Of a stretch of DNA of 64,000 nt, positions 8,827 to 20,338 are shown one piece after another. Position 1 is the first letter of the stretch. The number at the start of each line of letters is the position of its first letter. Position numbers and translations under genes: made by a program. The notes under the pieces are model-generated. The model searched no databases and had not been told where the DNA came from. It saw only the letters and a program-made list of their open reading frames with translations. Location: assembly GCF_023101685.1 (NCBI RefSeq), contig NZ_CP082164.1, positions 10,199,001 through 10,263,000 on the forward strand, read 5' to 3'. The DNA comes from Bradyrhizobium sp. 186 (GTDB lineage: Bacteria; Pseudomonadota; Alphaproteobacteria; Rhizobiales; Xanthobacteraceae).

Positions 8827-9075
8827 ATGTTCACCTACGAGACCGCGGACCACAAGGAAGTCCGTCGCTTCCGCATCGCGCAGTTCAACGGCCGGATGGC
8901 GACGGTGACTGCGGGCGAGTCGACGGTGACGGGATTCGTGCGCTCGGTGATCGAGCGGGATTCGAGCATTCCCCCGTGCTGGATCATCACGATCATCCCC
9001 AATGCGCCGAAGGAAGAGCCCAAGCAGCTGCGGCCCACCTCGCGTGTGCGTCCGTTCGCCGAAGACTATTTCTGA
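8827..9075 (+). CDS. Conserved-looking hypothetical protein, 82 aa
   Basis: No family is recognised. The 82-residue product has no membrane segment or signal peptide. The N-terminal two thirds look like a small beta-rich domain (RRFRIAQFNGRMATVTAGE, then CWIITIIPNAP), and the end is Pro/Arg-rich. A strong AGGAGGG lies about 7 bases before ATG, which makes translation credible. It converges on the LuxR-type gene 27 bp away. It could be a small DNA- or RNA-binding protein, but nothing in the sequence proves this. Confidence 0.7.
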   Translation: MFTYETADHKEVRRFRIAQFNGRMATVTAGESTVTGFVRSVIERDSSIPPCWIITIIPNAPKEEPKQLRPTSRVRPFAEDYF

Positions 9076-9102
9076 GCGCGACGGCGGCGCAAGACCAGAG
9101 CC

Positions 9103-9726
9103 TCAATCGATCGAATGCAGCAGCGCCGCGCGGACGAGGTCCGCGGTGTTGCGCGCGCCCAGCTTGCGCATCGCCTCGGCGCGATGGCTCTCGAATGTGC
9201 GCGGGCTGATCTGCATCCGCAGCGCGCCCTGCTTGTTCGAATAACCCTCGCTGATCAGCCTCAACACCTCGCGCTCGCGCTTGGTCAGCCGCTTCTGGCC
9301 CGACAGGTTCGAGAATTCGCGGCCCGCGATGTGCGCCGGCTGCGGCGCGCGGCTGGCCTTCAATTCAGCATCCCCGGTCGTGGACGACGGGGGCAAGCCA
9401 CCCTTGGGAGAGCCGGCAAGCTGCTTGACCAGGCCGCAAACACGCTCGGTCTGCGCCATCGCATTCTCCACGACCCGTTGCAAATAGGCGCGGTCGCCCG
9501 AGACCGGGGCGAGTTGATCGCTGTGATGCTTGATCTCGCCCATGTAGAGCAGGAGCGCAGTCAGGGGACCGTTGAGCTCGCGGGCGATGGCGGCGGCCAT
9601 CTCGTCGGCTGCCTTGGCGCGGACGGCGTTGAGCCGGACGAAATCGCGCTCTTCAGGCGGAGAAGCGCCGCTTTCGTACCATTCCGACGGCCGTGAATCA
9701 GCCGCCGTATCATTCTGTGACCCCAT
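9103..9726 (-). CDS. LuxR-type HTH regulator with a degenerate histidine-kinase H-box
   Basis: The product has 207 residues. The C-terminus (about 142-203) is a LuxR/GerE helix-turn-helix with LTKREREVLRLISEGYSNKQ and ISPRTFESHRAEAMRKLGARN. The N-terminus (about 28-105) resembles the dimerisation helices of FixL-type kinases: AIARELNGPLTALLLYMGEI aligns with the H-box HELNQPLTA, but the phosphorylated His is Arg49. No ATPase or receiver domain is present. It looks like a fusion of a kinase dimerisation module to a FixJ-like output and may act as a decoy or dimeric regulator. It converges with the 82-aa gene; its promoter lies beyond 9726. Confidence 0.82.
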   Translation of the reverse strand: MGSQNDTAADSRPSEWYESGASPPEERDFVRLNAVRAKAADEMAAAIARELNGPLTALLLYMGEIKHHSDQLAPVSGDRAYLQRVVENAMAQTERVCGLVKQLAGSPKGGLPPSSTTGDAELKASRAPQPAHIAGREFSNLSGQKRLTKREREVLRLISEGYSNKQGALRMQISPRTFESHRAEAMRKLGARNTADLVRAALLHSID

Positions 9727-10072
9727 GTCACTCGTTTATCGGAACCGGGGGTGGTCTGTGGTTAACTTTTTGCTCCGTAAGACTACGGTAATTTTGTCGG
9801 TTTTGTGCTGAAACGCCGGCGGAGGCACAATTTATGCTTGTGCAGAGCCGGCCTCGACCATGCACAGGTTGACAAATCTGTCTAAATTATCGGCAAGCGA
9901 GGCGAATACCGCTGTGCCGATCGCATCGCCGCCATGCGGGGCACCAAGGTTTCCGGCTTTTACGGATAAATTAACGGCGACTTGCTTCTCTATGTCACAA
10001 TCGAGAGCGCGCAAATGCCTCCACGCATTGGGCTGACGGGCCTGCGGGAAACGCTGCGGAAGATTGCGTGCC
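9727..10072. other. Intergenic region between divergent genes
   Basis: About 345 bp, more AT-rich than the flanks near 9740-9900, with runs such as TTTTGTCGGTTTTGTGCTG. It should contain the promoters for the LuxR-type gene (minus) and the 388-aa protein (plus). A minus-strand 80-codon frame covers 9832-10074 but overlaps the plus-strand start and has no family resemblance, so it is not called. Confidence 0.4.
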
Positions 10073-16821: not shown

Positions 16822-16911
16822 TGGCGGAGAGGGAGGGATTCGAACCCCCGATAGGCTTGCACCTATGCCGCATTTCGAGTGCGGTGCATTCAACCACTCT
16901 GCCACCTCTCC
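16822..16911 (-). tRNA. tRNA-Ser(CGA)
   Basis: Read on the minus strand, the 90-nt sequence starts GGAGAGGTGGC and ends with CCA encoded. The anticodon stem CCGCA/TGCGG encloses loop CTCGAAA, giving anticodon CGA (codon UCG). A long variable arm (ATAGGTGCAAGCCTAT) and the T-loop GGTTCGAATCC identify a class II serine tRNA. The acceptor stem pairs GGAGAGG with CCTCTCC. Confidence 0.97.
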
Positions 16912-18097: not shown

Positions 18098-19252
18098 TTA
18101 CTCCTTGTCGTTCTTGTTGTCGTTCTTGCCCTTCTTCTTGCTGGCTTCCTTGCCGTTCTCCGTAGAGTCCCGGTCTTTGCCATTGCCGCCATCCTTGCGG
18201 CGGTTGGTGAAACGCGCATTGCCGAGGCCGGTGCCGATGGTGAGCACGCCCCAACGCTCGACGTCCTGCATGAATGGCACCTCCGAAAGGCCCTGCACCA
18301 CGCCGTCATTGTGCATCAGGATCGCGGTGTCGTGCTCGCCGATCTGCGGGATGCCCTCGATCAGGCTCGCCGGCAGGTTGAACTTGCTGCTCTCCCAATT
18401 GCCCGGCAGGTTCTGCGCGCCCTTCTCGATGGAGCCGTCCTCGTTGATTACGCCGGGACAGGCGATGCCGATGAACGGCGCCAGCTTGAAGCCTTCTTCC
18501 TCGGCCTGCGCAATCAGCCCCTTCAGCATTTTCGCGAGCCGTTTCACCGCGCCTTCACGGGTCGGCTCGTCATCGGCATGACGCCACAGCTCGGATTTCC
18601 AAACTGAAGCCTTCGACAGGTCCTTTGCCTTCTTCCAGTTGGTCGTCACAACGCCACAGCGGATGTTGGTGCCGCCGATATCGACGGCGAGGATGCTGTC
18701 ATGGGCCTCGAAGATCCAGGATGGCGCCAGATGCAGTGCGCCAAGCAGACCGGCCTCGTCCGGATGATGACGGATCGGCAGCATGTCGATCTTGAAGTCC
18801 TCGGATTTCAGGATGATCTCGGTGCGCGCGATCGCGAGCTCGCCGAGCCTGGAATCGCGAAAGCCGCCGCCGACCACGATCCGCTCGGTCTTGGCCCACG
18901 CCTTGGTCTTCAGGAAGCGCCGCGTCACCTGGGCGAGCTCCTGGGCGAATTCCTCGATCGCGCTGTGCACCACCGCCGAGGCCTCGGTGTCGTCGCCGAC
19001 CAGGATGGCGTCCAGCGTCTTCTTGCTGATCTCCTCCGACGGCTCCTTGCCGAACGGATCCTCGCCGGTCTTGCGCAGCGGCTTGCGCCAGCGCTCGAGA
19101 ATGTCCCGGAACGCGCTCTTGCTGGCGCGGTCGCCGAGAAAGCCGTCCTCGTCCTTCATCTCGATGTTGAAGCTGTCGACGTCGACCGACGGCAGCCGGC
19201 TCGCACCGTGCTGCGCGATGCCCGTCGTCGCGACCAGTTCGCCCGTTGCCAT
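18098..19252 (-). CDS. ROK-family kinase homologue with circularly permuted motif order
   Basis: The product has 384 residues. ROK proteins normally run from a phosphate motif DxGGTxxR to GTGxG, then GGG and a C-terminal DAGLxGAA helix. Here the order is reversed in blocks. VVGGG is at about 127-130 and HHPDEAGLLGALHLA at 162-176. Then come AVDIGGTNIRCGVV at 189-202, GIACPGV at 262-268, NLPGNW near 281, HND at 314-316, and IGTGLGNARF at 339-348 near the end. The ROK zinc motif CxCGxxGC is absent. The last 35 residues are Lys/Asn/Asp-rich. The ATG at 19252 follows AAGGG at 6 bases. Sugar kinase activity is possible but unproved. Confidence 0.85.
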   Translation of the reverse strand: MATGELVATTGIAQHGASRLPSVDVDSFNIEMKDEDGFLGDRASKSAFRDILERWRKPLRKTGEDPFGKEPSEEISKKTLDAILVGDDTEASAVVHSAIEEFAQELAQVTRRFLKTKAWAKTERIVVGGGFRDSRLGELAIARTEIILKSEDFKIDMLPIRHHPDEAGLLGALHLAPSWIFEAHDSILAVDIGGTNIRCGVVTTNWKKAKDLSKASVWKSELWRHADDEPTREGAVKRLAKMLKGLIAQAEEEGFKLAPFIGIACPGVINEDGSIEKGAQNLPGNWESSKFNLPASLIEGIPQIGEHDTAILMHNDGVVQGLSEVPFMQDVERWGVLTIGTGLGNARFTNRRKDGGNGKDRDSTENGKEASKKKGKNDNKNDKE

Positions 19253-19581
19253 GGGTGCCCTTGCCCGCGTGCGAAATCCGGGGGACAACGGCGAGGGAAC
19301 CCGTTGGTTGCAGCGCGGGCAGAGATTCATTCCAGACCTGGAAGCGGCCCAAATCCTTCAAATCCGGGCCTTTTCCGGCGGTTTTCCTTGACTCCCGGCG
19401 TCCGGCGGCTATAAGTCCCGCAACCGGCGCGGGGCGTTTCTCGCGCCGCTTGTTTTTGCGTGGTTTTTCAAAGGGATAACTCCCCACCCGCGCAGAACTC
19501 GCAAAAACCCATAGCGACTGACAAAAAGCCGGCCCGGACATCCTGTCGCGAGGCCGGGATTGAACACGAAGGAAGAAAACG

Positions 19582-19971
19582 ATGTTCGCAGTCATCAAAA
19601 CCGGCGGCCGGCAGTACCGCGTCGTTCCGGATGATGTCTTGGAAGTCGGCAAGATCGAAGGCGAAGTCGGCTCGATCGTGCTGTTGAATGAAGTTCTGGT
19701 GGTCGGCGGCGACACGCCGGTCCTGGGTCTGCCGACGGTCGCAGGTGCGTCCGTGGCAGTCGAGGTGCTCGACCACAAGCGCGGACCGAAGGTCATCGCG
19801 TTCAAGAAGCGCCGCCGCAAGAATTCGCGCCGCAAGCGCGGCTACCGCGACGAGATCACGGTGCTGCGCGTCAGCGAGATCCTGACCGACAACGCCAAGC
19901 CCACCAAGGGCCCGCGTCCGAAGCGGGAAAAGGTCGTGAAGGAAACGGCCGAGGAAGCCGACGCCGCATAA
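19582..19971 (+). CDS. rplU: 50S ribosomal protein L21
   Basis: L21 binds 23S rRNA and L20 in the large subunit. The 129-residue product starts MFAVIKTGGRQYRV, has VLEVGKIEGEVG and the basic core KVIAFKKRRRKNSRRKRGYR near 72-91. A Lys/Glu/Ala-rich C-terminal extension of about 25 residues is usual in Rhizobiales. It is followed 97 bp later by rpmA, the standard pair. Initiation is supported by the upstream GAAGGAAGAAAACG. Confidence 0.98.
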   Translation: MFAVIKTGGRQYRVVPDDVLEVGKIEGEVGSIVLLNEVLVVGGDTPVLGLPTVAGASVAVEVLDHKRGPKVIAFKKRRRKNSRRKRGYRDEITVLRVSEILTDNAKPTKGPRPKREKVVKETAEEADAA

Positions 19972-20068: not shown

Positions 20069-20338
20069 ATGGCTCACAAAAAAGCAGGCGGTTCATCGCG
20101 CAACGGTCGCGATTCAAAGGGCAAGCGCCTTGGCATCAAGGCGTTCGGCGGGGAAGTTGTGATCCCCGGTAACATCATTGCGCGTCAGCGCGGCACCACC
20201 TGGCATCCCGGCCTTAATGTCGGCATGGGCACGGACCACACTTTGTTCGCCAAGGTCGAGGGTCGCGTCACGTTCCAGGCCAAAGCCAACGGCCGCACCT
20301 TCGTATCGGTGCTCCCGCTCGCTGAGGCGGCTGAATAG
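20069..20338 (+). CDS. rpmA: 50S ribosomal protein L27
   Basis: L27 lies near the peptidyl-transferase centre. The 89-residue product starts [20 protein letters not shown] and contains [15 protein letters not shown], both family hallmarks. No N-terminal cleavable extension of the Firmicutes type is seen. It lies downstream of rplU and is followed by a strong GC-rich hairpin. Confidence 0.98.

Follow-up and report, generated by a model that had tools for sequence, protein, structure and literature searches.

A gene for a probable, circularly permuted ROK-type kinase in Bradyrhizobium sp. 186 and its relatives

The stretch of Bradyrhizobium sp. 186 analysed here (64,000 nucleotides, contig NZ_CP082164.1, positions 10,199,001 to 10,263,000; hereafter the window) carries on its minus strand a gene for a 384-residue protein whose two halves correspond to those of ROK-family sugar kinases in exchanged order. 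A longer open reading frame, with an ATG at 19330 as its start, is also present, but alignments with close relatives begin at residue 1 of the 384-residue form. Such proteins are labelled in databases as 'ROK family protein', 'glucokinase' or 'predicted NBD/HSP70 family sugar kinase'. The evidence below supports the view of the initial annotation that the gene encodes a permuted ROK-family homologue, and we judge the protein to be almost certainly a naturally occurring, circularly permuted ROK kinase.

Motif order and predicted fold

The permuted motif order described in the initial annotation was borne out: VVGGG (residues 126–130) and HHPDEAGLLGA (162–172) come before DIGGTNIRCG (191–200), ACPGV (264–268), NLPGNW (281–286) and GTGLG (340–344), and the catalytic motif HND (314–316), not named there, stands between the last two. 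We followed this order in 361 proteins, comprising the window protein and the best 120 relatives for each of three queries, a set biased to near relatives of these queries because it was built from three such lists. By strict motif search the order was identical in 348 of them, query included; the remaining 13 are each off in one exact motif spelling, with the other motifs in the same order. The swapped order is shared by many bacteria, a point for which a homologue search had been proposed. The absence of the zinc motif CxCGxxGC was likewise confirmed (CxCGxxG in 0/361), and the lysine-rich tail is present at about residues 353–384, though it varies among relatives.

Positions 2–144 of the Pfam ROK model align to residues 188–353 (E 2.2e-9; whole-protein score 37.7 bits, above the cut-off of 22.9), and positions 212–286 of an NCBIfam NanK model of length 288 align to residues 97–176, with 20.4 bits, under that model's cut-off. 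Model positions of about 145–190 fall outside both best-matching stretches. A PDB sequence search recovered pieces of MNK and NanK in swapped order, with weak E-values (best 0.025). Alignment of profile A2 with the canonical profile A3 by hhalign gave pieces in swapped order (75–175 to 201–294 and 188–325 to 1–113) and a weaker, mis-set third piece (249–294 to 117–162). With a doubled canonical profile, one joined alignment was obtained over 75–294 (probability 94.9 versus 62.9), its right end, 257–294, being set on the same wrong segment as the third piece. Scanning rotations of the permuted profile revealed no peak at the correct position, single proteins rotated to canonical order did not gain in Pfam score, and two rotations cutting a half reached 31.1 and 25.2 bits, below the 37.7 of the native order. 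These profile tests of permutation (hhalign, doubled profile and rotations) are only partly informative.

Fold prediction gave one confident fold, in which the two-domain ASKHA fold expected by the initial annotation was recognised and ROK structures were matched half by half. In both sequence relationship and predicted fold, each half of this protein corresponds to the ROK-kinase half from the other end of the chain; structural matches for both halves included human MNK (2yhy), Staphylococcus aureus NanK (6q26), Streptomyces griseus glucokinase (3vgk) and Plesiomonas shigelloides NagK (7p7i). The old termini are joined via a short helix in the stretch of about 176–185, and the new termini fall between the phosphate-2 hairpin and the position of the sugar/zinc loop. 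The model also aligns to residues 287–675 of the tandem human hexokinase II (2nzt; 252 residues aligned, root-mean-square deviation 34 Å), a range that runs from the last part of one kinase copy into the first part of the following one. A whole-model Foldseek search further returned exopolyphosphatases and Hsp70-type ATPases (E about 1e-4 to 1e-3, deviation mostly 7 to 18 Å).

Table 1. Features of the permuted kinase gene and its divergent neighbours (window coordinates)
Feature	Coordinates	Strand	Remarks
Circularly permuted ROK-type kinase gene	18098..19252	minus	ATG 19252, stop 18098-18100, 384 residues
Residues 1-184	18701..19252	minus	equivalent of ROK C-terminal half, core about 22-176, plus joining helix 178-182 (old C-/N-termini)
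Residues 185-352	18197..18700	minus	equivalent of ROK N-terminal half
GGG 128-130	18863..18871	minus	adenosine-motif equivalent, 361/361
DIGGT 191-195	18668..18682	minus	phosphate-1 motif; D191 ~ NagK D6 (metal), T195 ~ NagK T10
N315-D316	18305..18310	minus	both 361/361; D316 ~ NagK D105 (catalytic base)
GTGLGNA 340-346	18215..18235	minus	phosphate-2 motif; T341 ~ NagK T132
H15	19208..19210	minus	possible stand-in for ExGH His; H in 355/361
G40-D41	19130..19135	minus	possible stand-in for acidic residue after CxCGxxGC; G 361/361, D 360/361
Lys-rich tail, residues 353-384	18101..18196	minus	low confidence in model; variable between relatives
L21-type ribosomal protein gene (presumed rplU)	19582..19971	plus	divergent neighbour; within 6 kb in 71/80 named loci
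L27-type ribosomal protein gene (presumed rpmA)	20069..20338	plus	within 6 kb in 71/80 named loci

Active-site residues and distribution

In NagK, passages of PMC10031466 assign a metal role to D6 and that of catalytic base to D105, with T10, N104 and T132 as further active-site residues. Among our 361 proteins, D191, G193, G194, N315, D316, G340, T341, G342, G344 and G128–G130 are invariant, as are G40, R198, P266, G267, N281, W286, H314 and Q320. At position 195, T stands in 332 proteins, S in 28 and K in one; N345 (360), D41 (360) and H15 (355) are nearly invariant. By these counts the equivalents of NagK D6, N104, D105 and T132 are kept, and that of T10 nearly so. The ROK signature motifs used for comparison were those listed in passages of PMC5458393, and the GExGH sugar motif was found in none of the 361. 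The residue three before H15 is neither acidic nor conserved; H15 may be a remnant of ExGH, and H15 and D41 perhaps replace the lost sugar-site residues.

The permuted protein thus shares with ROK kinases (Pfam PF00480) a score above the gathering cut-off, the DxGxT, GTG and GGG motifs, the catalytic Asp (D316) and, half by half in the predicted model, the two-domain ASKHA fold, but differs in its swapped halves, in lacking ExGH and the CxCGxxGCx(E/D) zinc motif, and in the joining stretch 176–185. Because it departs from the family in order, ExGH and zinc motif, we regard it as a variant derived from ROK kinases and not as a regular member. Fusobacterium nucleatum NanK (5nck) is described in passages of PMC5458393 as missing the zinc motif and keeping DxGxT, the catalytic Asp and ExGH; it resembles the permuted protein in all of these but ExGH, and unlike it has the normal order, NanK 1–144 aligning to permuted residues 185–351. 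The glucokinases of PF02685/TIGR00749 form a separate family, with glucokinase-like genes near GH15-otsA in other genomes, and PF02685 was not among the Pfam hits of the permuted protein at E up to 10, a range in which HMMER filters drop most hits above 0.1. Passages of PMC2213659 offer a precedent among related sugar kinases, a segment swap between ADP-dependent glucokinase and 2-dehydro-3-deoxygluconokinase. That case differs from the permuted ROK protein both in its fold, which is of the ribokinase type, and in the reordering. No description of a permuted ROK kinase was found in the titles, abstract openings and some passages of the open-licence PubMed Central (PMC) literature.

The spread of the gene was followed in four overlapping draws of genomes. 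All 36 genomes of the genus sampled in one draw, own included, gave single full-length matches, which with two other genomes of the order makes 38/60 in that draw. The order draw yielded 61/397 genomes in 19/141 genera, 57 with a full-length gene and four with fragments only (G264, G402, G261 and G421, the last from the window's own genus); the class draw yielded 16/385 and the phylum draw 22/398, five of these outside the class. Named carriers include Bradyrhizobium, Rhizobium, Sinorhizobium, Shinella, Methylobacterium, Phyllobacterium, Acidovorax, Polaromonas, Bordetella, Rhodoferax and Variovorax. The gene is also found on complete plasmids of Rhizobium and Sinorhizobium, and the 207 plasmid records in which it was matched are all named for Alpha- or Betaproteobacteria. 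No unpermuted sister protein was seen in the relative lists examined, and no relative in the viral contigs searched. Two ROK-family matches were found in the own genome, each of them permuted, and the second copy (G000:C1:2571390-2572439; L227:5965-7062) is 82% identical to the window gene.

Partial copies were seen in G007 (on several contigs), G010, G027, G028, G264, G261, G402 and G421, some of them with stops, which suggests that certain relatives are losing the gene or its second copy. In a record titled Frankia sp. RB7 (JAUEPE010000043.1, L109), whose label may be wrong, a gene 87% identical to that of the window stands near L21/L27 genes, the arrangement known from Bradyrhizobium. One permuted ROK protein of Bordetella sputigena (P0233, 442 residues) has an extra precomputed Pfam domain, PF07382, presumably histone-H1-like.

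Gene neighbourhood and a stress promoter motif

The window gene is divergent from the L21/L27 ribosomal protein genes, and 71 of 80 named close-relative loci have both of these no more than 6 kb away. The sole tRNA gene that ARAGORN reports in the window is a tRNA-Ser (CGA) at 16822–16911, minus strand. In other lineages otsB adjoins the permuted gene region (R. johnstonii, Shinella, R. phaseoli, R. binae); in S. meliloti the neighbour is an osmoprotectant N-acetylglutaminylglutamine amide (NAGGN) peptidase gene, on a Bradyrhizobium plasmid the neighbours are PRC-barrel and Hsp20 genes and a DUF892 protein, and the own paralogue L227 also adjoins a DUF892 gene.

Counts were made over 47 permuted loci, near-duplicate plasmid loci (L172, L174, L175) being left out. 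Within about 6–8 kb, otsB was present in 6/47, versus 0/20 canonical-ROK loci (Fisher 0.11); the former far exceeds the chance level for genomes of about 4.5 Mb with a single otsB each (Poisson 5e-9, assuming independent loci, which they are not). In 11 of 13 chosen genomes otsB is present as a single copy; of the other two, one has two copies and one has none. The single otsB lies within 1 kb of the permuted gene in G124, G054, G419 and G186, which were chosen knowing otsB to be near, and about 10 kb away in G337. A GH15-otsA-otsB cluster stands beside the permuted gene in L208, L209 and L225. A full-length permuted gene and a close GH15 gene (>580 bits) occur together in 14 genomes, at most 5 kb apart in nine, six of which belong to one genus. 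Over 45 GH15 loci, otsA was present within the stretch in 44 and otsB in 41; the permuted gene was present in six, picked for having it. A glucokinase-like gene was found in 11 of the 39 GH15 loci without the permuted gene versus 0/6 with it (Fisher 0.17), and five of these 11 genes, when scanned, were glucokinase-like, below NCBIfam cut-offs.

For promoters, we relied on GGAAC-N16-CGTT, reported for R. etli sigma EcfG1 in passages of PMC3892343, and scored GGAAC-N16/17-CGTT within 300 nucleotides upstream of the conserved His codon. The motif was found in 18/47 loci, against 0.65 expected from the same loci: 18/42 in Alphaproteobacteria and 0/5 in others. In 16 of the 18 positive loci a copy of it lies 97–134 nucleotides before the His codon. 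Among 360 box pairs of the same letters, the real one included, the real pair was best with 18 loci, the next reaching 4 and the mean being 0.19; on the reverse strand, the motif occurred in 4/47. It was present in 1/16 scorable canonical-ROK control loci (Fisher 0.013); 4/80 named loci and 4/20 controls had no anchor and were not scored. The motif is absent from the 300 nucleotides upstream of the window gene and from all 76 scorable named close-relative loci; the own second copy, unlike the window copy, carries it. Given this distribution, much of the family, and the own paralogue with it, is probably under stress control; for the window copy the motif gives no such indication. The main texts of PMC3616915, PMC3892343 and PMC4167512 contain none of the terms ROK, glucokinase and sugar kinase, and no paper tying the general stress response to a ROK family protein was found in the open-licence PMC literature.

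Proposed function and competing explanations

Our overall explanation, to which we give a probability of about 60%, is a permuted ROK kinase with a rebuilt sugar site, acting most likely on a hexose, glucose first, in a family much of which is probably stress-controlled. Judged from its residues, the protein is very probably an active kinase. Its two domains would close around the cleft as in ROK kinases; Mg-ATP would be held by D191, T195 and GTG 340–342, and D316 would take the proton from a sugar hydroxyl, so that the sugar is phosphorylated. At its sugar end the pocket would be rebuilt in the absence of ExGH and zinc, H15 and D41 perhaps contributing, and the glucose-6-phosphate produced from glucose would feed stress or trehalose metabolism. 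Bradyrhizobium would keep its main copy without stress promoter beside L21/L27, the second copy of this genome having the promoter. A stress or trehalose role of part of the family is probable.

For glucose or another ordinary hexose as the substrate, we put the odds at about even. Glucose is favoured because the permuted gene sits in trehalose clusters and glucokinase-like genes stand in comparable places. PF02685 is missing from 4/13 genomes with the permuted gene, but canonical ROK genes are present in two of the four (G054, G089). Two points weigh against glucose: the own genome has PF02685, and GH15-otsA-otsB clusters also hold PfkB-type and polyphosphate-glucokinase-like kinases (L208:3408-4532; L225:7874-8971 and 8971-9750; L301:3292-4089). 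A permuted kinase acting on something other than an ordinary hexose (for instance trehalose or another disaccharide, an aminosugar or a compound that is not a sugar) is the less likely course. Loss of ExGH and the zinc loop would then reflect a new pocket, in keeping with the joint absence of GExGH and CxCGxxG from the 361 proteins, the retention of G40, R198, W286, H314, Q320, D41 and H15, and the trehalose or osmolyte genes neighbouring it in some lineages. The glucokinase-like genes near GH15-otsA in loci without the permuted gene argue against this, as does zinc-less F. nucleatum NanK, reported in passages of PMC5458393 to retain structural features of activity, so that zinc loss alone does not imply a new substrate. 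Still further, a separate Alphaproteobacteria/Burkholderiales permutant family, with a zinc-free rebuilt sugar site and a substrate new for ROK kinases, serving the general stress response and the trehalose pool, can be proposed only tentatively.

The protein might instead be a non-enzymatic sensor or regulator of sugars or nucleotides, like the ROK repressors, two of which (5f7r, 3bp8) are among the structural matches; we find this improbable, as a DNA-binding domain is absent from the Pfam hits and the metal, base and phosphate-2 residues are invariant. The initial annotation had also allowed for two partial ROK halves brought together by an assembly error or by a gene fusion confined to this strain. 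Examination gave no support to this or to a frameshift, and the probability is negligible: by strict motifs the order is swapped in 348/361 proteins, the gene gives single full-length matches in 36/36 genus genomes of one draw, it stands on complete plasmids and the chain has one confident fold. An assembly error or single-strain fusion was rejected, the same permuted gene being found across the genus, order, class and phylum draws and on plasmids.

If the explanation as a permuted ROK kinase is true, a widely kept kinase family has survived a swap of its two halves, which would provide a natural experiment on how far a two-domain kinase fold can withstand a change in the order of its parts and the loss of the zinc loop. 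The links to a stress promoter and to trehalose make its role testable in well-studied soil bacteria (Sinorhizobium, Rhizobium, Bradyrhizobium).
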